A stretch of 43,651 bases of DNA, from NCBI RefSeq assembly GCF_023255755.1, contig NZ_JAGDVS010000084.1, positions 1-43,651 on the forward strand. Reading direction: 5' to 3'. The notes under the pieces are model-generated. The model worked only from the letters and a program-made list of their open reading frames with translations, ran no database searches and was not told where the DNA came from. This document shows, piece by piece, positions 1,321 through 25,932 of this stretch; within the stretch, counting starts at the first letter, position 1, and every line of letters begins with the position of its first letter. This stretch comes from Acidithiobacillus sp. Its GTDB lineage: Bacteria; Pseudomonadota; Gammaproteobacteria; Acidithiobacillales; Acidithiobacillaceae. The position numbers and the translations under genes are program-made.

Positions 1321-2430
1321 TTAGCCGTGCAGGGTGCGACGGATCACGGTAGCGATCCTGGCAATCTGCTCCTCACGCAGTTCCGGAAACATGGGCAACG
1401 AGAGTACCCGCTCCGCCAGACGTTCTGCCACCGGACAATGGGCGTGGGCCTGGTGCGCAAACATCTTCTGCTGATGTCCTGGAATTGGATAATAAATGGC
1501 GCTGGCAATGCCTTCAGCATGGAGGGCGGCCTTCACCGCATCCCGCGCGTTCAACTGAATCGTAAACTGATGGAATACGTGGTGATAACCTGCTGGAGAT
1601 TCCGGCAATTGCAGGTCGAGACCCGCCAGATGCTCGGCGTACCACCCTGCCGCCTGCCGCCGTCCGGTGTTATAGGCCGCCAGATGCGGGAACTCCGCCC
1701 GCAGAATCACCGCCTGCATTTCGTCGAGGCGGCTGTTATAGCCCAACACGTCATGGTGGTAGGTCTGCCAGGAACCATGGTTGCGCAGTCCGCGCAGTTT
1801 ACGTTCCAGCTCCGCATCCGCCGTCACCACCATGCCACCATCTCCGGCAGCACCGAGATTTTTGCTGGGGAAGAAAGAAAAACAGCCGATATCGCCAAAA
1901 CTGCCCACCCCCTGTCCGTTAATTTCGGCACCAATGGCCTGAGCACAATCCTCAACCACCCGTAAACCATGCTTCTGAGCGAGCGCCATGATGGCGGGCA
2001 TATCCGCGGGCAAGCCGTAGAGATGTACGGGGATGATCGCTTTGGTCCGCGACGTAATGGCGGCCTCGATACCGGCTACGGTCATGGCGTAAAAACGATC
2101 ATCCACATCTACAAAGACCGGCGTAGCACCCACATAAAGCACGGCTTCCGCAGTCGCAATGAACGTAAAGGTGGGGACGATCACCTCGTCGCCGGGCCCG
2201 ATTTCCAGGGCACGCAGGGCCAGCATCAGGGCATCCGTACCGGAAGCGCAGCCCACACCATGGGCAACACCGGAGAGGCATGCCAGCTCCGTCTCCAACG
2301 CACGTCCATGATTTCCCAGGATAAAACTGGCATCGTCCAGAATTTTCCCTATCCCCGTCAGAATCTCATCCCGCAGCGGCGCAAAGTGCGCGCGCAAATC
2401 GACCATGGGAATTGTTATATTTTGAGTCAT
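1321..2430 (-). CDS. gnnB: UDP-GlcNAc 3-ketosugar aminotransferase GnnB (DegT/DnrJ/EryC1 family)
   Basis: This is a PLP-dependent sugar aminotransferase of the DegT/DnrJ/EryC1/StrS family. In A. ferrooxidans GnnB transaminates UDP-3-keto-GlcNAc, using glutamate, to UDP-GlcNAc3N, the precursor of lipid A with an amide at position 3. The 369-aa protein has SGTDAL near 63-68 (phosphate contact), EDCAQAIG at 160-167 with D161 for the PLP ring nitrogen, and FFPSKNLGAAGDGG with K190 as the expected Schiff-base lysine. It lies between gnnA (45 bases upstream) and lpxB (4 bases downstream) inside the lpx operon. The family signature is certain; the exact substrate is inferred from the lpxA-gnnA-gnnB-lpxB context and from published work on Acidithiobacillus. 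Confidence 0.9.
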   Translation of the reverse strand: MTQNITIPMVDLRAHFAPLRDEILTGIGKILDDASFILGNHGRALETELACLSGVAHGVGCASGTDALMLALRALEIGPGDEVIVPTFTFIATAEAVLYVGATPVFVDVDDRFYAMTVAGIEAAITSRTKAIIPVHLYGLPADMPAIMALAQKHGLRVVEDCAQAIGAEINGQGVGSFGDIGCFSFFPSKNLGAAGDGGMVVTADAELERKLRGLRNHGSWQTYHHDVLGYNSRLDEMQAVILRAEFPHLAAYNTGRRQAAGWYAEHLAGLDLQLPESPAGYHHVFHQFTIQLNARDAVKAALHAEGIASAIYYPIPGHQQKMFAHQAHAHCPVAERLAERVLSLPMFPELREEQIARIATVIRRTLHG

Positions 2431-2475
2431 GCATCACCGTCCAAAAAAAAGTCAAAACCTGCACCGGCATTACGC

Positions 2476-3417
2476 TCAATGCTGCAGAAAAGCCTCCACG
2501 GCTATCCGCACCTGCAGCGCCGCCGCCAGCACCCGCCGACCCGCGATGCCATCACAAAACACCGGCCGGTGCGCTACGATGGCGCTCAGAAAATCCTCAA
2601 TCTCCGCCGCCAAGGCATCCCGTTTGGGTAACTCCACGGCCTCATCACGCACACCGGGAATTCCCGGCACTGTTCCCGCACCGCGATGGTAGATATGCAG
2701 GGTGTTGTTGAGAAAATCCACCGAGGCATAACGATCCTGCCAAAAGATACGCATGCGCCGCGCTGGCTCCCGCACTACCCGGGAGGCCGCCAGGTTGGCC
2801 ACGGTGCCATTGTTCAGCGTCATCCAGGCATTGGCCATATCCGCCTTGTCCGTTACTGCCGCGACACCCACGGCGCGCACGTCCACGGGTTCGGCGCCAG
2901 TCAGCAGTAAAGTCAGGTCCAGATCGTGAATCATCAGATCCATGATCACGTCGATATCCAGCGAGCGTGGCTTGAAAGGCGCCAAGCGCTCTGCCTCCAG
3001 GTAGCGGGGCGCTCCGTAGCCAGCCCGCCGCAAATGCTGAATAGCCGGATGTACCCTTTTGATGTGACCAACCGCCAGCACCAGATGGCGCTCCTGTGCC
3101 ATGCCGATCAGCGCGTCCGCTTCTTCGGTATCCAGGGTAAACGGCTTTTCGACCAGGCAGTGTACACCGGCCTGCATGGCCGCTTCCGCTGCCGCGAAGT
3201 GGGTAGAGGTGGGAGTGGCAATGGACACAGCATCCACTTCAGCCAGTAATGCACCAACGCTGGAAAAAGCACGGCACCCCAATTCGGCGGCAACCTCCGT
3301 GGCCCGTTCCCCATTCTCGTCAAAAACACCTGCCAGTTGTGAGATTGCGGCATATTTCTGCGCATGAAAGCGGCCAAGATGGCCGACACCAATAACGCCG
3401 GTTCGTATATTGATCAT
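2476..3417 (-). CDS. gnnA: UDP-GlcNAc 3-dehydrogenase GnnA (Gfo/Idh/MocA family)
   Basis: This 313-aa NAD-dependent oxidoreductase belongs to the Gfo/Idh/MocA family. GnnA of A. ferrooxidans oxidises the 3-hydroxyl of UDP-GlcNAc so that GnnB can aminate it. Visible features are the Rossmann motif GVIGVGHLGRFHAQ near residues 8-21, the STHF segment near 72-75, and EKPFTLD near 90-96, the family's catalytic EKP. The C-terminal half is the usual alpha/beta substrate domain. Its ATG overlaps the TGA of lpxA (ATGA, bases 3414-3417), so it is translationally coupled to LpxA, the acyltransferase that would use the product. A generic dehydrogenase with another sugar substrate cannot be excluded from sequence alone, but the neighbourhood argues strongly for GnnA. 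Confidence 0.9.
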   Translation of the reverse strand: MINIRTGVIGVGHLGRFHAQKYAAISQLAGVFDENGERATEVAAELGCRAFSSVGALLAEVDAVSIATPTSTHFAAAEAAMQAGVHCLVEKPFTLDTEEADALIGMAQERHLVLAVGHIKRVHPAIQHLRRAGYGAPRYLEAERLAPFKPRSLDIDVIMDLMIHDLDLTLLLTGAEPVDVRAVGVAAVTDKADMANAWMTLNNGTVANLAASRVVREPARRMRIFWQDRYASVDFLNNTLHIYHRGAGTVPGIPGVRDEAVELPKRDALAAEIEDFLSAIVAHRPVFCDGIAGRRVLAAALQVRIAVEAFLQH

Positions 3418-4196
3418 GGTCGGGTAATTCCGCGATGCGTATTACGAATAAAATCCAAAAGGTAGGCCACCTCTGGAGCAGTCAGTCCGCGCTGCAGCAC
3501 TTCATCCATCGCGTCTTCCAGGCGCCGCCCTGAGCGAAACAACAGGCGATAGGCGCGCTTAATCTGCAAAATGGTCTCCCGGGAAATCCCGCGCCGGGCC
3601 AGACCGCGCACGTTAATGCCATGCAAACTGGCATGATTACCTGCCGCCATCATATACGGCGGGATGTCCAGGGGTGCCATGGTACCGCCGCCGAGAATCG
3701 CGTGAGCCCCCACCCGCGCATACTGATGCACCGCCGACAGGCCGCCGAGGATGGCGTGATCTTCGACACTAACATGGCCGGCGAGCGTTGCTGCATTGGC
3801 CATCACCACCTGATCGCCAATACAACAGTCGTGCGCCACATGGCAGTAAGCCATGAGGAGGTTGTGATGACCAATCCGCGTTATTCCACCACCTTTCACG
3901 GTGCCACGATTGATGGTCACAAACTCACGTATCGTATTGTACGAGCCGATTTCGAGCGCAGTAGGTTCACCTGTGTAGCCAAGGTCCTGCGGAGCAGTGC
4001 CGACAGATGCAAACTGAAAGATATGGTTATGGGTTCCCAAGCGGCTGGGACCCTCAATCACTGCATGCGCACCAATTTGACAGTGATCGCCGATTTCCAC
4101 CTCTGCACCAATGACCGCAAAAGGCCCGATTACGCAATCATCGCCGATCCGTGCCAAGGGATCGACGATGGCCTGCGGATGAATCTGTGCGATCAT
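3414..4196 (-). CDS. lpxA: UDP-GlcNAc(3N) acyltransferase
   Basis: LpxA transfers a 3-hydroxyacyl chain from ACP to position 3 of the UDP-sugar, the first step of lipid A synthesis, in the cytoplasm. The 260-aa protein has a long left-handed beta-helix of hexapeptide repeats (residues about 1-185) and a helical C-terminal domain. The CHVAHDC segment carries H119 and H122, the latter matching catalytic His125 of E. coli. The GNHA motif and a RRG(I/F)SRE block typical of LpxA follow. Because gnnA and gnnB lie directly downstream, it probably prefers the 3-amino substrate and forms an amide, as shown for A. ferrooxidans LpxA. It overlaps fabZ upstream and gnnA downstream by 4 bases each. Confidence 0.97.
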   Translation of the reverse strand: MIAQIHPQAIVDPLARIGDDCVIGPFAVIGAEVEIGDHCQIGAHAVIEGPSRLGTHNHIFQFASVGTAPQDLGYTGEPTALEIGSYNTIREFVTINRGTVKGGGITRIGHHNLLMAYCHVAHDCCIGDQVVMANAATLAGHVSVEDHAILGGLSAVHQYARVGAHAILGGGTMAPLDIPPYMMAAGNHASLHGINVRGLARRGISRETILQIKRAYRLLFRSGRRLEDAMDEVLQRGLTAPEVAYLLDFIRNTHRGITRP

Positions 4197-4639
4197 TGGG
4201 CATGCTCGCGTAGCGTCGCCATCAGCAGCGCAGAGGCCACTTCCGCGCCATTAACCAGCGCCACCGTTTCCATCTGCCACATACCGGAACGCCGGCGGCT
4301 CACATTGGCGATGAGTTCCAGCTGATCGCCGGGCGTCACCGGCTTGCGGAAACGTGCCTTATCGATCCCGGCAAAATAAACCGCTGCATTCTCGCCATAC
4401 TTGTCTTCGGAAACAAAGGCGAGAAGGGCCGCCGCCTGGGCGAGCGCTTCAATGATGAGGACACCTGGCATAACCGGAAATCCTGGGAAATGCCCCTGAA
4501 AATGCGGCTCATTCATGGTGACATTTTTCAAAGCACGTAAACGCTTCCCAATCTCTATTTCAACCACCCGATCCACCAGCAGAAATGGATAGCGATGTGG
4601 CAAGCGTTTAAGAATATCCTGAATATTCAGCTCATTCAC
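4193..4639 (-). CDS. fabZ: 3-hydroxyacyl-ACP dehydratase
   Basis: FabZ dehydrates 3-hydroxyacyl-ACP in fatty acid elongation and competes with LpxA and LpxD for the 3-hydroxyacyl-ACP pool. The 148-aa protein is a single hot-dog domain. [13 protein letters not shown] near residues 13-25 is the family's N-terminal signature. [20 protein letters not shown] at 49-68 contains the catalytic histidine H50 and glutamate E64. The start overlaps the end of lpxD by 8 bases and the stop overlaps the lpxA ATG by 4 bases, the usual lpxD-fabZ-lpxA order. Confidence 0.98.
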
Positions 4640-5693
4640 GATCAGACGGCTCCCCGTTTGTAGATAAATCCTGCCCGACTTTACGCTCGATTCGCTTCAC
4701 CCGACGGAACAGTGCATCCAGCCCGTCGAGACGCGCGACGACACGTCTCCAGCGGTTCACTTCCTGTGCAGGGATCACCCCTGAATAAACACCGGCACGA
4801 CGCAAAGAATGAGTCACAGCGCTCTGTCCAGCGATCATACAGCCATCGGCAATTTCTATGTGACCGCTAATCCCTACCTGACCACCAATACGGCAATGAC
4901 GGCCAACCCGCGAACTTCCCGCAATACCTGTCTGTCCGGCAACAACCGTATGCGCGCCGATCTGGACGTTGTGCCCGATCTGCACCAGATTGTCTATCTT
5001 TACCCCATCTTCAATCACCGTGTCTGCCAGTGCGCCGCGGTCAATGCAGGAGTTGGCACCAATCTCCACGTCATTTCCAATAAGTACACGACCCACCTGC
5101 GGTATCTTCAGAAACCGGCCACCTGCCTCGGCAAAACCAAAACCATCGGCACCAATCACTGCGCCCGCATGGATGATGCAATCGGCACCCAACTTGCAGC
5201 CCGCATAAACTTTAACACCGGGATAAAGATGTGACCCACGTCCCACCTCCGCGCCCGCACCGATAAAGGTGCCGGCCTCCAGCCAGACACCTGCCGCGAT
5301 CACCGCTCCAGCCTCTATCTGCACGTAGGCATCAATGCGGGAATCAGGATCCACCTGCGCGTCTCGCGCCAGTTGTGCGGTATGATGCAGTCCAGGCTGA
5401 AGGGCGCCCTGCGGATAGATGTACTGCATAATCCGCGCAAATGCCGCGTAGGGATTGTCCGTCAACAGACAGTTCCCGGAAAAATTCTCCGCATCCTGCG
5501 GAGTAATAACCACAGCTCCTGCCTTACTCGCTTTTAACAGAGTTCGCAAATGCGGGTCCTGATAAAAAGTGAGCTCCCCACTGTCGGCCGTATTGAGCGG
5601 TGCCACTGCACTAATCTGATACCCCGCATCGCCACGCAATTGGGCGCCAGCCACTTGCGCAAGATCACCGAGGAGATACAAGCCACGCGCCAC
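4632..5693 (-). CDS. lpxD: UDP-3-O-(or 3-N-)acyl-glucosamine N-acyltransferase
   Basis: LpxD adds the second 3-hydroxyacyl chain, to the 2-amino group, after LpxC deacetylation. From the GTG at 5691-5693 the protein is 353 aa, close to the usual length of about 340. It has the N-terminal uridine-binding domain (LTFYQDP near 44-50) and then a hexapeptide beta-helix. IGHNVQIG carries the expected catalytic histidine, and a helical, Arg-rich C-terminus ends the protein. The frame stays open upstream to 5834, but that part overlaps skp and lacks LpxD similarity. The GTG is one base past the skp stop with a GGCGGT ribosome-binding site, so I prefer it. A TTG four codons later is possible. Confidence 0.95.
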
Positions 5694-17708: not shown

Positions 17709-19220
17709 TTACCATTGCAGGCAAAAATCTGGCGTGATCCACTCCTGCTCCTGCTCCAGATCGGCAGCCATCAGCGGCATTTCTGTCAGCCATTTCAGTG
17801 GTAATGCCAGCACCAGTTTTTTACCGGACACAGTCAAACCCGGCGGTGCCGTCAGTGGCGTCGCGCCACGATGAAACAGGATAGCCAAGCGGAGCAGGAT
17901 CGCCAACTGCTGCAACACCGCCACATCTTCAGCCGCGATACCCAGAGCACGTAACTGAGCAAGGCCCGGAAGGCGTTTACGCTGGGCGCGCACGAGCGCG
18001 GCAACAACGCCCTGCTCACGACGAGAGAATCCCGCAATATCGGCATTCCGCCAGACGTATTCACCATGTTTGTGAAATCCCGAATGGGCGATGTCGAGGC
18101 CGATATCATGGGTCAGAGCGGCCCAATGCAGCCATTGCTTATGCCCGCCGTGGAGCGGCCAGGATACGGCTGCCGTCTTGAAAAAATGCTCCGCCCACTG
18201 CGCTATGCCCTGGTTACGCCGCACCTGGCTGTGAAAGCGTTCCTGCAGGCTGCGGATGCTCATTTCCCGGGTGTCTTCCTGATGGATGCGCCCGAGCAAG
18301 TCATAAATGGCCCCCTCGCGCAAAGCGCCCTCAGAAAAACGCATTTCCTGCAGACGCAAGGACTCGAAAAGCGCGAAGAGAATGATGAATCCACCCGGAA
18401 AAACGGCGGCACGATCCGCCTTCAGGCCTTTCAGTTGGGTCAGCGCACGTACTGAACCGAGACGCGTCATTTGCTCGCGCAGCCAGTGCATGCCAGCGTG
18501 GGTGATGCGCGAACCCTGACCGTTCTCCGCGAGGACACGGGCAATCGCCTTGATGGTACCCGAAGAACCCACCGCCTGATCCCAGCCATGGCGGATAAAA
18601 TCATCAAGCATGGGTTCTACCGCCATACGCACCCGTTTTTCAAGACGCTCACAGGCGCCCGCCGTAATCAGTTCATCGGGAAAGTAGGCCCGGGTAGAGG
18701 CCACACAGCCAAAATGCAGGCTTTCCCGCAGATCGGGGGTAAAGCCCTGGCCCGCAATCAACTCCGTACTGCCCCCCCCGATATCCGCAACCAAACGCCG
18801 TTCACGCGCGTCTACCGCCAAGCTGTGCGCCACGCCGAGGTAAACCAGACGCGCTTCTTCGCGGCCAGCCACGATTTCCACCGGGTAACCGAGCGTTTTT
18901 TCGATGGCATGCACAAAGTCTTCTCCAGCACTCGCATCGCGCAAGGTATTCGTGCCGATCACCCGCACCCGCTCCGGGCGGATACCGCGCAGACGCTGTC
19001 CGAAGCGCGCCAGGCAGTCCAGTGCGCGCTGTTCTACCGCAGGATCAAGGCTACCGTCATCGCGCAAACCTTCAGCCAGACGAACGCCCTCACGCAAACG
19101 ATCATGCAGACGGATATCAGAGCCAATTTCTTCTGCAACCACCATATGAAAGGAGTTGGAACCCAGGTCCACGGCCGCCAGAAAGTTTTTGAGTTCTGCT
19201 GTGGCTGTGGATTCCACCAT
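17709..19220 (-). CDS. ppx: Exopolyphosphatase (Ppx/GppA family)
   Basis: Ppx releases phosphate from the ends of polyphosphate chains; the related GppA hydrolyses pppGpp. The 503-aa protein has the actin-like domain with AAVDLGSNSFHMVVAE near residues 15-30, ADIGGGSTELI near 141-151 and GSSGTIKAI. A C-terminal HD-type helical domain contains LTHDIGLDIAHSGFHKHG, as in long Ppx proteins. It starts 2 bases after phoU, so it is probably co-transcribed with the phosphate uptake genes. Ppx rather than GppA is favoured by that context, not by a decisive residue. Confidence 0.92.
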   Translation of the reverse strand: MVESTATAELKNFLAAVDLGSNSFHMVVAEEIGSDIRLHDRLREGVRLAEGLRDDGSLDPAVEQRALDCLARFGQRLRGIRPERVRVIGTNTLRDASAGEDFVHAIEKTLGYPVEIVAGREEARLVYLGVAHSLAVDARERRLVADIGGGSTELIAGQGFTPDLRESLHFGCVASTRAYFPDELITAGACERLEKRVRMAVEPMLDDFIRHGWDQAVGSSGTIKAIARVLAENGQGSRITHAGMHWLREQMTRLGSVRALTQLKGLKADRAAVFPGGFIILFALFESLRLQEMRFSEGALREGAIYDLLGRIHQEDTREMSIRSLQERFHSQVRRNQGIAQWAEHFFKTAAVSWPLHGGHKQWLHWAALTHDIGLDIAHSGFHKHGEYVWRNADIAGFSRREQGVVAALVRAQRKRLPGLAQLRALGIAAEDVAVLQQLAILLRLAILFHRGATPLTAPPGLTVSGKKLVLALPLKWLTEMPLMAADLEQEQEWITPDFCLQW

Positions 19221-19222
19221 GG

Positions 19223-19936
19223 CTATTTCCTCTGGATACTTTGTTCTACCTCGTCTAATGGAAGATGCCGGACACTTTTCCCTTTAGCAAGATAAATGAC
19301 GTATTCGCAGATATTCCGGGCATGATCGCCAATACGCTCAATGGCCTTGGCGATAAAAAGCGCATCAATGGCCGGGGTGATGGTGCGCGGATCTTCCATC
19401 ATGTAGGTAATCAGACGGCGCAAGGCAGAACGGTATTCCTGATTGAGCACCTCATCGCCTTTGGCGACGGCAATGGCTTCCTCCGCATCTGCACGGGCCA
19501 GGGCGTCCATGGCGCGGCGCAACATATTCAGGGCATAGTCGGCCATGACGCCCACGTCTCTGAGAAAGGCCGGATTGTCGTTACGCGCGCCATGTCCCAT
19601 GGCCAGGGCCATGTCGGCAATTTTGCTGGCCTTGTCGCCCATCCGCTCCAGATCCGCGATGGTCTTGATCAGGGTCATCACCAAACGCAGATCACTGGCG
19701 GCAGGCTGACGCGTAGCCAGAATATTGATGCACTCTTCTTCAATACGCACCTCGTAACCATTCACCTCATGGTCACGGCCAATCACCTCACGGGCCAGTT
19801 CGGCATCTGACTCCTGCAGTGCCCTGACAGCATTCGTGATCTGCTCCTCCACCACCCCCCCCATGGCGAGCACCAAGGCGTGGACCTCGTGGAGTTCTTC
19901 ATCAAAACGCTGGGAAATATGTGGTTCTTTGTCCAT
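19223..19936 (-). CDS. phoU: Phosphate transport system regulator PhoU
   Basis: PhoU connects the Pst transporter to PhoR and keeps the Pho regulon off when phosphate is abundant. The 237-aa protein is all-helical with two similar three-helix repeats. Each repeat has the metal-binding type of acidic motif: EVRIEEECINIL and DLERMGDKASKIADMA in the first, and AIERIGDHARNICEYVIY in the second. It lies 11 bases after pstB and 2 bases before ppx. Confidence 0.97.
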   Translation of the reverse strand: MDKEPHISQRFDEELHEVHALVLAMGGVVEEQITNAVRALQESDAELAREVIGRDHEVNGYEVRIEEECINILATRQPAASDLRLVMTLIKTIADLERMGDKASKIADMALAMGHGARNDNPAFLRDVGVMADYALNMLRRAMDALARADAEEAIAVAKGDEVLNQEYRSALRRLITYMMEDPRTITPAIDALFIAKAIERIGDHARNICEYVIYLAKGKSVRHLPLDEVEQSIQRK

Positions 19937-19947
19937 AGCTGCACTCC

Positions 19948-20715
19948 TTAACCGTAGCGACCCGTGATGTAGTCTTCTGTCTGTTTTTTACCGGGATTGG
20001 TGAATAACTGATTGGTAGGCCCAAATTCCACCATCTCGCCGATATACATAAATGCCGTGTAATCAGAGACTCGCGCTGCCTGCTGCATGTTGTGGGTGAC
20101 GATCAGAATCGTAAACTGATTGCGCAGTTCACTCACCAGCTCTTCAATCTTGAGGGTAGCAATAGGATCCAGCGCCGAAGTCGGCTCATCCAGCAGGATC
20201 ACCTCTGGTTGCACCGCCACTGCGCGTGCAATACACAGGCGTTGCTGCTGCCCGCCGGACAACCCCAGCCCGCTAGTCTTGAGTTTGTCCTTCACCTCTT
20301 CCCAGAGAGCTGCCTGGCGCAACGCCTGCTCCACCCGCTCGTCCATCTCCACCTTGCGTAATTTTTCATAGAGCTTGATGCCAAAGGCGATATTGTCATA
20401 GATGGACATGGGAAAAGGCGTTGGTTTCTGAAATACCATACCGATTTTAGCGCGCAGCATATTCACATCCATGCCGGGAGCGAGAATATTCTCGCCATCC
20501 AGCAGTACCTCGCCGGTCGCCCGTTGCCCAGGGTACAGAGAATACATGCGATTAAACACCCGCAGGAGCGTCGACTTGCCGCAACCCGATGGCCCGATGA
20601 ACGCTGTCACCTGATTCTCTGGCATTTCCAAGTTGATATCTATGAGGGCCTTGTTGCTCCCGTAAAAAAAATCCAGGTGGCGGACGGATATTTTGGTTTT
20701 CTGAGGTTCCGACAT
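19948..20715 (-). CDS. pstB: Phosphate ABC transporter ATP-binding protein
   Basis: PstB powers high-affinity phosphate import. I start at the ATG at 20713-20715 (MSEPQKTK), which shares one base with the pstA stop and has AGGAG upstream; this gives 255 aa, the usual length. The open frame continues upstream into pstA, but that extension is not PstB-like. Motifs are Walker [10 protein letters not shown], the ABC signature LSGGQQQR, Walker [14 protein letters not shown], and the switch histidine in [11 protein letters not shown]. Confidence 0.98.
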
Positions 20716-21569
20716 TAACGCGGACTCCTGTCTTTGATAAGAAAGCGAGAAACGAGGCCCAAGACTAGCACAGCCATGGCAGCTATCAACGCACCCGCCC
20801 AGGCCAGATGCTGCCATTCCGGATAAGGACTCATGGCAAATTGAAAAATGACTACGGGGACATTGGCAATCGGCTTGTCCAGATTCATGCTGAAGAACTG
20901 ATTATTGAGCGCCGTGAACAACAGCGGTGCGGTCTCGCCGCTAATCCTTGCCACCGCCAGCAGAACCCCGGTGAGTATACCAGAACGCGCAGCCCGATAA
21001 CTCACCTGAACGATCATCTTCCAGTGGGGCGCCCCCAGGGCCAGGGCCGCCTCACGCATGGTGCCGGGGACCATGCCCAGCATCTCATCCGTGGTGCGCA
21101 GGACGACGGGCAAAAGCAAAATAGCCAGTGACAAGGCCCCGGCAAGACCCGAGAAGTTCCCCATGGGTACCACCATGACTGCGTAAATAAACAGGCCGAT
21201 CACGATGGAAGGCGCGCTGAGCAGAATATCATTAAAAAAACGGATGACCCCCGCCAGGCGGCTGCCTTGCGCAAACTCGGCGAGATAGGTGCCGGCCAGG
21301 ATTCCCACAGGGGTACCGATCAGCACCGCCACGCCGATCATCAGCAGGCTGCCCACGAAGGCATTGCGCAGCCCGCCAATGCTGCCGGGCGCGGGCGTGT
21401 CACCGGTAAACAGTTCCAGGTTCAGGGCGGTAGCGCCATAAGAGAGGGTGGTCCAGAGAATCCAGACCAGCCAGAAGAGGCCAAACAGGGTCATGGCGAC
21501 CGCCATGCCCAGATTGAAAATATTCCAGAAGCGGCGGCGCAGATAACGGACGTTCATAGCCGCACTCAT
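20715..21569 (-). CDS. pstA: Phosphate ABC transporter permease PstA
   Basis: PstA is one of two permeases of the PstSCAB importer in the inner membrane. The 284-aa protein has six predicted membrane helices. The EAA-type loop that contacts PstB is seen around [30 protein letters not shown] and [13 protein letters not shown] are typical PstA segments. It overlaps pstC by 4 bases (ATGA) and pstB by 1. Confidence 0.97.
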
Positions 21570-22588
21570 AGGCCCGCTTTCCCTTGTCCCTGACCGAGAT
21601 GCCAGAGCATCAGTTTGGCCAGCACCAGCACCACGAAGGTAATGATGAAAAGAATGAAACCCAAGGCCATGAGCGCCGACTTGTACATGGGTGAAAAAGC
21701 CTCGGCAAACTCGTTCGCCAGCGCTGCGGCGATAGAGTTTCCGGCGTCGAGCAAAGAGATATGGAGGTCCTGGGCATTACCGATCACAAAAGTTACCGCC
21801 ATGGTTTCACCAAGGGCACGACCCAGACCGAGGAACACCCCGCCGACTACCGCCGTACGGGTATAAGGGAGAACCACATGGCGCGCCACTTCCCAAGTCG
21901 TGGCACCGAGGCCATAGGCCGACTCTTTGAGCATCGTTGGCACAACCAGAAAAACATCGCGCATGATCGCGGAAATAAAGGGGATCACCATGATGGCCAG
22001 AATAATACCGGCAGTCAGCATACCAATGCCCATCGGCGGGCCGCGAAACAGCGCACCAATACCGCGCAGGGCACCCAGATGATCATTGAGCCAAGGCTCT
22101 GCGCTGCCCAAAACCGGCGCAAAGACGAAAAGACCCCACATGCCGAAGATGATACTGGGGATACCCGCCAGCAGTTCAATGGCGCTGCCGACCGGTTGGC
22201 GCAACCATTCGGGTGCGAGTTCACTGATAAATAAGGCGATGCCGAAACTGATGGGCACGGCGATCAGCAGGGCGATCAGAGAGCTGACCAAAGTCCCGTA
22301 AATCGGTACCAGAGCGCCGAAGTTCTCCGTAACCGGATCCCAGGCATCGCTCCAGAAAAAAGCGAAGCCAAAATGATGAAAGGCTTCCCACCCGCGCAAA
22401 AAAAGGGACAACGCCACCCCAACCAGCAGGAGCAGGACCAAAAAGGCGAGCCCACCCGTCAGCCAGCGGAAGCCCCGGTCCATGACATGCAGGCGTCGTG
22501 ATCGCGCCGGGCTGATGCGAGATGGCACAGCGGGGGACGGCACCGCCGCCTTCCGCATTCCCAACTCTGCGTCGCGGGTATCGTCCAT
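21566..22588 (-). CDS. pstC: Phosphate ABC transporter permease PstC
   Basis: PstC pairs with PstA to form the transmembrane channel. The 340-aa protein has a roughly 35-residue basic cytoplasmic N-terminus, then six membrane helices. YGTLVSSLIALLIAVPISFGIALFISE and GIPSIIFGMWGLFVFAP are strongly conserved PstC segments, and the PstB-contact loop is LKESAYGLGATTWEVA. GRALGETMAVTFVIGN matches the family's C-terminal block. It begins 8 bases after pstS. Confidence 0.97.
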   Translation of the reverse strand: MDDTRDAELGMRKAAVPSPAVPSRISPARSRRLHVMDRGFRWLTGGLAFLVLLLLVGVALSLFLRGWEAFHHFGFAFFWSDAWDPVTENFGALVPIYGTLVSSLIALLIAVPISFGIALFISELAPEWLRQPVGSAIELLAGIPSIIFGMWGLFVFAPVLGSAEPWLNDHLGALRGIGALFRGPPMGIGMLTAGIILAIMVIPFISAIMRDVFLVVPTMLKESAYGLGATTWEVARHVVLPYTRTAVVGGVFLGLGRALGETMAVTFVIGNAQDLHISLLDAGNSIAAALANEFAEAFSPMYKSALMALGFILFIITFVVLVLAKLMLWHLGQGQGKAGL

Positions 22589-22596
22589 ATCTTAGT

Positions 22597-23616
22597 TCAC
22601 TGGCCCAGAGTCCTTTTCCAGTACGCCTCAATCTGCGTCACCGTAGTTTTTGGTAATGGCACATAATCCAGGCTCCTGGCTTCTGCTTGCGCCTGCGGGG
22701 CTGTCAGGAACCAGCGCGCAAACTTCAGGACTCCGGCATTAGCCGTCTTATCGGCGTCCTTGCGCATAAGGATGTAAGTCGCAGCGGAAATGGGCCAACT
22801 TTGGGCACCCGGCTGGTTGGTGAGAATCATGTAGAAATCCTCTACCTTGGTAAAGTCCGCATTCGCCGCGGCGGCCTGGAAAGTGGCCAGATCAGGGGTC
22901 ACCACTTTGCCCGCAGCATTGATCATTTTGCCGTAAGCCATGTGATTTTCCTTGGCATAGGCATATTCCACGTAGCCGATGGCACCGGGAATCCGCTGTA
23001 CATATGCAGCGACGCCCGCATTACCCTTGCCACCCACACCAACAGGCCAGGAAACAGCAGTGTTATCGCCCACCCGTTGCTTCCATTCCGGGCTTACTTT
23101 GGCCAGATAATTGGTAAAGTTGAAGGTAGTGCCGGAGCCGTCAGAACGATGGACCACGGTAATATTCATATCCGGCAGCTTAACGCCCTTATTGAGGTCG
23201 GCAATGGCCGCGTCGTTCCATTTCTTGATCTTACCCAGGTAAATACCGGTGAGCACAGTGCCGTTGAAGGTCAGTTCACCGGGCTTTATACCGGGGACAT
23301 TCACGACGGGGGTAATGCCAATAATCACTGCCGGAAACTGAACGAGCTGGTCTTTGCTGAGATATTCAGGCTTGAGGGGCATGTCGCTGTTGGCGAAAGC
23401 GACGGTTTTGGCCTTGATTTGGGCAATCCCGCCACCAGAACCGATAGCCTGATAGTTCACCATGGTGCCCGTTTTCTGTTTGTAGGTTTCTGCCCATTTG
23501 GACAGGACGGGATAAATGGCCGTGCCGCCTGCGGCGGAAATGGTTTCCGCCTGCGCCAGCCCTGCTACGCCCAAGCTCATCACGCCCAACATAAAAGCCA
23601 CGCCATTGAACTTCAT
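22597..23616 (-). CDS. pstS: Periplasmic phosphate-binding protein PstS
   Basis: PstS captures phosphate in the periplasm and hands it to PstCA. The 339-aa precursor has a signal peptide with likely cleavage after AQA (residue 23). Ligand-site motifs are ISAAGGTAIYP near 26-36, GSGGGIAQI, the FANSDMPL block, and HRSDGSGTTFNFTNYL, which supplies the phosphate-binding serine, arginine and aspartate side chains. It is the first gene after the Pho box at 23676-23694 and should be the most phosphate-responsive of the cluster. Confidence 0.98.
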   Translation of the reverse strand: MKFNGVAFMLGVMSLGVAGLAQAETISAAGGTAIYPVLSKWAETYKQKTGTMVNYQAIGSGGGIAQIKAKTVAFANSDMPLKPEYLSKDQLVQFPAVIIGITPVVNVPGIKPGELTFNGTVLTGIYLGKIKKWNDAAIADLNKGVKLPDMNITVVHRSDGSGTTFNFTNYLAKVSPEWKQRVGDNTAVSWPVGVGGKGNAGVAAYVQRIPGAIGYVEYAYAKENHMAYGKMINAAGKVVTPDLATFQAAAANADFTKVEDFYMILTNQPGAQSWPISAATYILMRKDADKTANAGVLKFARWFLTAPQAQAEARSLDYVPLPKTTVTQIEAYWKRTLGQ

Positions 23617-23660: not shown

Positions 23661-23666
23661 ACTATA
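23661..23666 (-). promoter_or_regulatory. -10 element of the pstS promoter
   Basis: On the minus strand the hexamer reads TATAGT (5 of 6 matches to TATAAT). It starts 9 bases after the end of the Pho box, near the spacing in E. coli pho promoters, where the Pho box replaces the -35. The predicted start site would lie about 38 bases before the pstS ATG. Confidence 0.65.
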
Positions 23667-23675
23667 GCAAGATTT

Positions 23676-23694
23676 TATTACAATTTTATGACAC
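23676..23694 (-). promoter_or_regulatory. Pho box (PhoB binding site) for pstS, overlapping the phoR stop codon
   Basis: Read on the minus strand, TGTCATA and TGTAATA occur as two 7-base direct repeats separated by four bases (11-base period), closely matching the PhoB consensus of CTGTCAT repeats. The first repeat is built from the last codons of phoR: its TCA-TAA is the final serine and stop (stop at 23686-23688). PhoB-phosphate bound here would recruit RNA polymerase to the -10 at 23661-23666. The call rests on pattern plus position directly upstream of pstS; binding itself is inferred. Confidence 0.8.
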
Positions 23695-25017
23695 TGCGGA
23701 GTCGGGGGGGAAACTGCGGGCGAGATGAAGCGGAAAATGCGCAGTAAAAGTGGTTCCCTTACCCACTTCACTGGCTACTTCCAGATGCCCCTGATAACGC
23801 TCGACAGCGTGACGGACAATGGCCAGCCCCAACCCCGTGCCCCCCATGCGTCGGGAGCGACCTTTGTCCACCCGGTAAAAACGCTCGGTGATACGCTGCA
23901 AATGCTCGGCAGCGATACCATCGCCGGTATCCTGCACCACGAAAAGCAGCTCGCCGGGGCGACGCTCCCAGCGTACGCTGACGGCGCGGTCTGCCGGGGT
24001 ATATTTGATGGCGTTTTCTAATAAATTGCGAATGATACTGGTCAGGTCGATGGTTTCTGCGAAAAAGCCCAAGTCGCTATCCAGCGCTGTGTCGATCTGC
24101 AACCGTTTTTGCATTATCGCGGGCGCCAGGGTGTCCAATGTGTTGTGTATCATGTCCGCGAGCATCAGTGTTTCGCAGTGTTCCGGATTCGCTTCGGCGG
24201 CCTCCATGCGTGCCAGAGACAGCAGGTCTTCGACCAAAGACTGCATGCGCAGTGTCTGCTGTTCCATGAGACGGAGTTGACTGCTCACCTCATCGTCGGC
24301 GGCGATGGGACTGTCCAGCATGTTTTCCAGGAAACCGCGCACCACCGTCAGCGGGCTGCGCAACTCGTGGGAGACATTAGCCACGAAGTCCTGACGGACC
24401 TGTTCAAGCTGGCGGATACGGGTCACGTCCCGGAAGATGACCAAAGCGCCGGCATCGGCGAGGGGATAGCGCATACCCTCCAAAATCTGTTGTGCATCTG
24501 CCGGGGCGGGGAGTTGCAGGCTGGGCGGCCCTTCGCCAGCGAGAAAGGCCCGCAGATGCGGGGTACGCAGCCAGAAGGCCAGCGGCTTGCCCGCGTCATC
24601 GGGCCACTGCAGTTGCAGCAAGCGGATACCGGAAGGATTCACCCAAAGTAACTGACCGCGCTCATCCATGAGCACCACGACGTCGGGCATGGCCTGCAAG
24701 GCGTCACGCAATTGTACAATCTGGGCACTCAGCAGACGGTGCTGTGCCTCCTGATCACGTCGCCAGTGGTAGCCCTCGGCAAAAGTCTCCTCCCACATCC
24801 CCCCCGCCAGCGGTGGCAGTAAGGTGTCCGGGTTGCGGAACCAAGCGCTGAAACTCTGGGATTGCTGGCGATGCCAGCCGACCCAGAGCGCCAGCAAGAG
24901 AGCGATGATCACCGGTGGGAGGTAGGACCAGGCGCGCAGATCATCGTCGGCGGCCAGAAAAATCGGAATCAGTGACCAGAGCACTACGGGGTAAAACCAG
25001 GCACGGAGGTACTTCAC
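23686..25017 (-). CDS. phoR: Phosphate regulon sensor histidine kinase
   Basis: PhoR autophosphorylates and passes phosphate to PhoB when phosphate is scarce. The 443-aa protein has two N-terminal membrane segments (about 7-23 and 33-48) and almost no periplasmic loop, as usual for PhoR. A PAS domain (about 100-200) follows, then HisKA with FVANVSHELRSP and phospho-acceptor H217. The HATPase domain has NLLENAIKYTP, DTGDGIAAE and GGTGLGLAIV. The lack of a large sensor loop fits signalling from the Pst-PhoU complex. It lies 61 bases after phoB, and its stop codon is part of the pstS Pho box. Confidence 0.96.
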   Translation of the reverse strand: MKYLRAWFYPVVLWSLIPIFLAADDDLRAWSYLPPVIIALLLALWVGWHRQQSQSFSAWFRNPDTLLPPLAGGMWEETFAEGYHWRRDQEAQHRLLSAQIVQLRDALQAMPDVVVLMDERGQLLWVNPSGIRLLQLQWPDDAGKPLAFWLRTPHLRAFLAGEGPPSLQLPAPADAQQILEGMRYPLADAGALVIFRDVTRIRQLEQVRQDFVANVSHELRSPLTVVRGFLENMLDSPIAADDEVSSQLRLMEQQTLRMQSLVEDLLSLARMEAAEANPEHCETLMLADMIHNTLDTLAPAIMQKRLQIDTALDSDLGFFAETIDLTSIIRNLLENAIKYTPADRAVSVRWERRPGELLFVVQDTGDGIAAEHLQRITERFYRVDKGRSRRMGGTGLGLAIVRHAVERYQGHLEVASEVGKGTTFTAHFPLHLARSFPPDSAVS

Positions 25018-25078: not shown

Positions 25079-25813
25079 TCATCGCCCGCCGCCCACCACT
25101 TCGCGCTGGGACCCCAAGGCGCTACAGCGATAGCCTTCGCCCCTTACTGTTTCGATGATATGCGCATAACCATGGTGGTCCAACCCCCGCCGTAAGCGGC
25201 GAATGTGAACATCGACCGTCCGCTCTTCAATAAAACTCTGCCGCCCCCAGATCTGATCGAGCAGCATGTCCCGCGAAAAGACCCGTTCTGGATTGGTCAC
25301 AAAGAGACGCAAAAGACGGAACTCGGTAGGGCCGAGATGGATCTGCACTTCACCGGCGTACACCCGATGCGCGCGCAGGTCCACATGCAGATCACCGAGC
25401 CGCACTCGGCCTGCTGCCGTACCGCCATAACTGCGTCGTAACAGGGCATTGACCCGCGCCACCAACTCCCGCGGAGAAAAAGGTTTGGCCAGGTAATCGT
25501 CCGCGCCCGATTCAAGACCATGCACACGGTCACTTTCCTCACCGCGCGCCGTGAGCAAAATGATAGGCAGTTTCTGGGTCTCTTCACGCCGGCGCAGAGT
25601 ACGGCACCATGCCAGGCCATTCTCGCCAGGAAGCATCCAGTCAAGAACGAGCAACTGCGGCCCCCAGGTCAGGAGTACGGCTTCCGCAGATTCGACACTT
25701 CCCTCACAGCGCACCTCAAAGCCATGACGCTGCAGGGTGACGCGCAGGAGTTCCTGGATGCCTTCCTCATCCTCCACCACCAGGACGCGGGAGGATGCCT
25801 TGTCTTCGTCCAT
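25079..25813 (-). CDS. phoB: Phosphate regulon response regulator
   Basis: PhoB is the OmpR-type regulator that binds Pho boxes. From the ATG at 25811-25813 (MDEDKASS) it is 244 aa, and an AAGG ribosome-binding site precedes this start. An in-frame ATG at 25838-25840 would add nine residues. The receiver domain has the acidic pocket EDEE and phosphorylation site D58 in LVLDWMLPG, with K in LAKPFSP. The C-terminal winged helix includes LGPTEFRLLRLF, the recognition region RTVDVHIRRLRRGL and a final TVRGEGYR. I see no Pho box upstream, so autoregulation is not evident. Confidence 0.96.
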   Translation of the reverse strand: MDEDKASSRVLVVEDEEGIQELLRVTLQRHGFEVRCEGSVESAEAVLLTWGPQLLVLDWMLPGENGLAWCRTLRRREETQKLPIILLTARGEESDRVHGLESGADDYLAKPFSPRELVARVNALLRRSYGGTAAGRVRLGDLHVDLRAHRVYAGEVQIHLGPTEFRLLRLFVTNPERVFSRDMLLDQIWGRQSFIEERTVDVHIRRLRRGLDHHGYAHIIETVRGEGYRCSALGSQREVVGGGR

Positions 25814-25932
25814 ACCTGCCTTTTGCTCGGACACACTCATCGTCCGCTTATTGTGGCGCAAGCCCTGGCGGGATGCCAAGACACTGCGAACAAAGATAAC
25901 CCGGTCAGTGCGGGATGGGAAGGATCAACCTC

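Follow-up and report, generated by a model that had tools for sequence, protein, structure and literature searches.

The window, a stretch of 43,651 nucleotides from an Acidithiobacillus sp. (contig C23), carries on its minus strand the gene order phoB-phoR-pstS-pstC-pstA-pstB-phoU followed by a Ppx/GppA-type gene, and its nearest phoR relatives are those of Acidithiobacillus ferrivorans and its neighbours. The response regulator gene phoB lies in an open reading frame at 25079..25879 (TIGR02154, 300.6 bits, cut-off 296.2), and its actual start is probably inside this frame. The sensor histidine kinase gene phoR (23686..25017) encodes 443 amino acids from a presumed GTG start and scores 398.3 bits with the NCBIfam model TIGR02966 (cut-off 334.2) and 321.9 with a second PhoR model, NF008235, which is under the cut-off of 390. 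The first gene of the operon behind the Pho box described below is pstS (22597..23616; NF008171, 388.2 bits, cut-off 339), and profile matches assign the remainder of the operon, pstC, pstA, pstB, phoU and the Ppx/GppA-type gene, to 17709..22588, with the last of these genes falling under every curated cut-off. An E. coli-like PhoB DNA-binding domain, which a PhoB-activated promoter calls for, is encoded in the window: it aligns with E. coli PhoB with an E value of 3.5e-31, and the two proteins have in common the stretch RTVDVHIRRLR, which we take to be the recognition helix. The same gene order is described for the phoBR-pstS1C1A1B1-phoU-ppx (pstI) operon of A. ferrooxidans, on which PhoB-binding sites are marked according to the legend of Figure 6 (PMC10322971); unlike the window, the pstI section of that text makes no mention of an overlap with the phoR stop.

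Direct reading of the minus strand shows that phoR ends in ...GCA GTG TCA TAA, with the stop codon at 23688..23686. The first 11-bp repeat of the Pho box, TGTCATAAAAT (23693..23683), has 8 of its 11 bases in phoR codons or the stop; the overlap (23686..23693) consists of the last two bases of GTG, then TCA and the TAA stop. The second repeat, TGTAATAAAAT (23682..23672), is followed by a 5-bp spacer, CTTGC (23671..23667), and by TATAGT (23666..23661), the -10 element of the predicted PhoB-dependent pstS promoter, which fits TATNNT at the spacing seen in the family. The box and the -10 together occupy 23693..23661, and 44 nt lead from there to the pstS ATG. The 18-mer starting at 23694 agrees at 16 of 18 positions with CTGTCAT-N4-CTGTCAT, a consensus that is E. 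coli's own as given in PMC3465305, and the two 11-bp direct repeats of a PhoB-activated promoter are thus present. The overlap of the phoR stop with a Pho box, proposed in an earlier note on this DNA, is therefore real; the box is present as that note had it, and its "TGTCATA repeat" is more exactly one member of a pair of 11-bp direct repeats. Since the phoR end and the box share bases, changes in the last codons of phoR would alter the predicted operator too.

The site resembles the pstS-type PhoB promoters of E. coli in repeat length and consensus (PMC4415409, PMC3465305), in its place before pstS and in the PhoB DNA-binding domain; it differs from the E. coli pstS promoter in that repeat 1 sits in the end of phoR and contains its stop codon. 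Among the titles and abstract openings listed from an open-licence library, none describes a Pho box over a phoR stop or the A. ferrooxidans Pho box, which is not proof of their being unpublished. No RNA structure was detected at the phoR/pstS junction (z = -0.77), and a generic sigma-70 promoter and terminator scan between phoR and pstS returned none, at a low power reflected in yields of just 0.5 and 0.8 from shuffled sequences.

A search with a degenerate 21-mer at up to three mismatches finds one match in the window, a mismatch-free one at the phoR/pstS site; among 100 shuffled windows, 12 contain a match at this threshold (mean 0.12). In the whole genome of the window, at up to two mismatches, there are 4 matches, compared with 0 for the reversed control. 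The Pho box at the end of phoR is more than chance. A chance resemblance was rejected by the shuffle test and the reversed control. Among the 17 genus genomes, 14 yield the phoR-linked box with this pattern, and the reversed control gives one match in G006 and 0 in the remaining 16. The three genomes missed are G002, G004 and G012; in the first two the boxes (L006, L009) escape because repeat 2 is degraded, and G012 has no phoR match.

Orthologues of phoR were collected from 16 of the 17 genus genomes and from 11 of 12 genomes of the other genera of Acidithiobacillaceae, giving 27 loci; none was found in G012 (81% complete) or G019 (71% complete). The box and the -10 are kept in 25 of these loci, with TATNNT always 27 bp from the box start, a fixed spacing such as a PhoB-activated promoter would have. 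The retained boxes match 15–20 of 20 specified positions, and the two excluded loci, L038 and L039, match 11. The phoR stop falls within the box in 23 of 25 loci, in repeat 1 in 13 and in repeat 2 in 10, although these rows are related and do not represent 23 separate events. Relative to the box start, the stop ends 8 bases in at 13 loci, 16 at one and 19 at nine, and the repeat 1 stops (13 of the 25 boxes) read TCA-TAA. The box is also kept in the two loci where phoR ends before it: in L031, which matches the isolate A. sulfuriphilus CJ-2, the stop is 30 nt upstream, and in L037 it is 7 nt upstream, a provisional position in a 69%-complete draft. On the PhoR tree, loci with offset 8 are present in each of the two main genus clades, and those with offset 19 in one of these clades as well as in the sister genera, a spread which suggests that the phoR frame changed more than once on a tree that has 13 of 24 inner branches poorly supported and is read without formal reconstruction. 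The two offsets differ by one 11-bp repeat, which amounts to a frame shift of two, so that different repeats catch different frames.

Conservation follows the DNA elements. Across the 25 loci the mean entropy comes to 0.25 bits in repeat 1, 0.70 in repeat 2 and 0.36 in the -10, versus 1.62 in the phoR tail and 1.79 downstream, where indels inflate the figures of this ungapped alignment. Within the window's own clade (nine loci) the order is different, repeat 2 at 0.61 bits exceeding the phoR tail at 0.44. In 24 of 27 loci phoR has TCA as its last sense codon, and TCA is the rarest phoR serine codon (22 of 580), a count over related rows to which no probability is attached. The phoR stop is TAA in 25 of 27; the 12 window genes counted end in TGA (7), TAA (4) and TAG (1). 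One DNA read in differing frames gives the PhoR ends VS, LS, VIKR, VIKRS, VIKPS and VIKVS. The earlier note had proposed to check whether relatives keep the C-terminal VS-stop; the check came out favourably, with the box DNA kept and the PhoR peptide not, and the conserved entity is, to judge from these alignments, operator DNA.

The opposite reading would have kinase function preserve the C-terminal peptide (VS or VIKVS), with the likeness to a Pho box secondary; in its favour, PhoR proteins of several genera end in VIKVS or a variant of it. This reading is nevertheless extremely improbable, as the same DNA yields different PhoR ends in several frames, L031 and L037 have the box without the peptide, conservation continues beyond the stop through repeat 2 and the -10, and a copy of the box in G009, discussed below, has no phoR. 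A conserved PhoR peptide was rejected on the differing ends and frames and on the retained box DNA, and VIKVS-like PhoR ends call for caution before they are taken as protein motifs. In eight loci (L032–L037, L040 and L041) the TGTCATA of the genus is replaced in repeat 1 by TGTCATC or TGTCATT, a difference in the eighth-base region. In the VIKVS frame these variants put ATC or ATT in place of the ATA isoleucine codon, and they are possibly a trace of coding on the operator.

PhoB sites over coding sequence are known from E. coli (PMC10294691, PMC3465305), and many of these intragenic sites are inert, so the site at the end of phoR could likewise be a transcriptionally inert PhoB-like sequence. 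The E. coli sites are, however, described as mostly inert, unconserved and promoterless (PMC10294691), whereas the site in the window is conserved, joined to a -10 at fixed distance in 25 of 27 loci and placed before pst genes. Induction of the pstI operon of A. ferrooxidans ATCC 23270 by phosphate limitation, cited as a personal communication (PMC10322971), also speaks against inertness, which is judged very unlikely.

The site is most probably an ordinary PhoB-activated promoter packed against phoR, with the operator supplying the phoR stop. The overlap, its conservation, the differences in frame and the separability from phoR are seen in the sequences; that PhoB binds and activates, where transcription starts, and that drift is the cause are what we infer here. 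The two 11-bp repeats would hold tandem PhoB monomers, which would replace a -35 and stand 5 bp ahead of the -10, and under phosphate shortage PhoB would drive pstS-pstC-pstA-pstB-phoU from this promoter. Selection would keep the operator as DNA while the sequence, length and frame of the phoR tail before it drift, and the phoR frame would end at the first stop met, often one from the operator. TCATAA is possible in each repeat, and the period of 11 is a multiple of three plus two, so repeat 2 can stop frames that repeat 1 misses; with this two-repeat geometry the operator supplies the phoR stop in two of three frames. As a by-product of the operator, PhoR would then end in VS, LS or VIKVS. 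When tails are drawn at random in a simulation, a tail of 12 codons has its stop in the repeats 42% of the time (69%, 50% and 8% by frame), compared with 23 of 25 in the family; this high share needs inheritance or selection, and inheritance must account for much of it. The neutral simulation was rejected as a sole account on this comparison. In L038 and L039 most of the box is gone and TCA-TAA is retained at the phoR end; a reading of the site as operator alone has no use for this, and it counts against that reading. The arrangement is a clean example, found in nature, of operator DNA doubling as a stop codon.

The box is separable from phoR and from pstSCA. In G009 a second copy of pstS1C1A1 lies on a contig other than that of its phoR, at L195 (G009:C22:1-7000, reverse complement 1843-4897), with no phoR in front. 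It covers 3060 bp at 89% identity to the window, and the homology runs from one base before the Pho box to about 75 bases into pstB. This phoR-free copy has the look of a module that was transferred or rearranged, and may be a contaminating contig, the stated contamination of the genome being 1%; the phoR locus of G009 is identical over 160 bases to that of A. marinus SH. Of 16 genus loci, 9 lack pstSCA and have a pstB-like gene as the next one after the box, and relics of pstA were found in 7 of 14 phoR-pstB stretches tested. These relics are C-terminal and lie between phoR and pstB in L002, L004, L006, L010, L012, L013 and L014. From such remnants it appears that pstSCA was lost from the operon and the Pho box stayed. 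Most Acidithiobacillaceae are reported to have two pstSCA copies, with A. thiooxidans and an A. ferriphilus-like strain as exceptions (PMC8886135), and these exceptions are consistent with the losses found in the genus loci. The frame changes, the deletions and the phoR-free copy separate DNA constraint from protein constraint.

Outside Acidithiobacillaceae a class sample of 120 phoR-like loci was used, with orthology by best hits alone; it was made up of 59 of 78 non-own matches, one locus from another search and 60 further genomes of 162 matched, best scores first. G056, G167 and G274 were skipped (match at a contig edge), and L135 and L161 are shortened by contig ends. With a box defined as up to 2 of 12 mismatches within -30 to +100 of the phoR stop, 42 of the 120 loci have one beside the stop, compared with 3 on the other strand and 1 in a control at +250 to +380. 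These boxes start at a median of 14.5 bases past the stop, and 11 of the 42 overlap it, in eight families by label, at offsets of -8 (5), -19 (2, plus L141 read from sequence), -16 (1) and -5 (2). Register statistics for this sample were set aside as post hoc and as drawn from related genomes. The sister family within the order is represented by two loci, L075 and L076, and neither shows a box near phoR. In G054, G079, G053 and G303 one TGA is reported inside or at the phoR-like match.

The recurrence of the overlap in eight other families, together with the phoR-pstS interval in which the weak scan found no terminator, could suggest selection for the fusion itself: PhoB sitting on the box would block polymerase arriving from phoR, phoBR transcripts would end before the stop and PhoR would be lowered. 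There is little probability that this feedback, which requires the box to be on the stop, operates, because boxes slightly past the stop are equally common in the outside sample, L031 manages without overlap, and roadblock by intragenic PhoB sites is disfavoured in an E. coli study (PMC10294691). An operator on the stop is hardly likely to be a control device reached repeatedly in Gammaproteobacteria, in which polymerase halted in the phoR tail leaves stop-less phoR messages; if it were one, strong pst induction would lower PhoR. The class-wide controls suggest tight packing, the fusion need not have a function, and a regulatory role of the stop/operator fusion itself is unsupported. The ordinary promoter packed against phoR appears from these comparisons to be a compact, recurrent arrangement of the PhoB type, and the recurrence in 11 of 42 boxes suggests a simple rule by which A/T-rich operators end upstream genes.

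Of the four 21-mer sites in the genome of the window, one is the phoR/pstS box; the others precede a second pstS, an ExbB/TonB cluster and an open reading frame without Pfam match. The second pst operon, whose genes judged by look are pstS, pstC and pstA, is preceded by four tandem 11-bp Pho repeats (L052, G000:C129, box at 1949). Three-repeat boxes lie upstream of the ExbB/TonB cluster (L073, G000:C163, box at 620) and, on the minus strand, upstream of the frame without Pfam match (L074, G000:C198, box at 3115). These last two boxes point to a possible phosphate-controlled, TonB-linked uptake.
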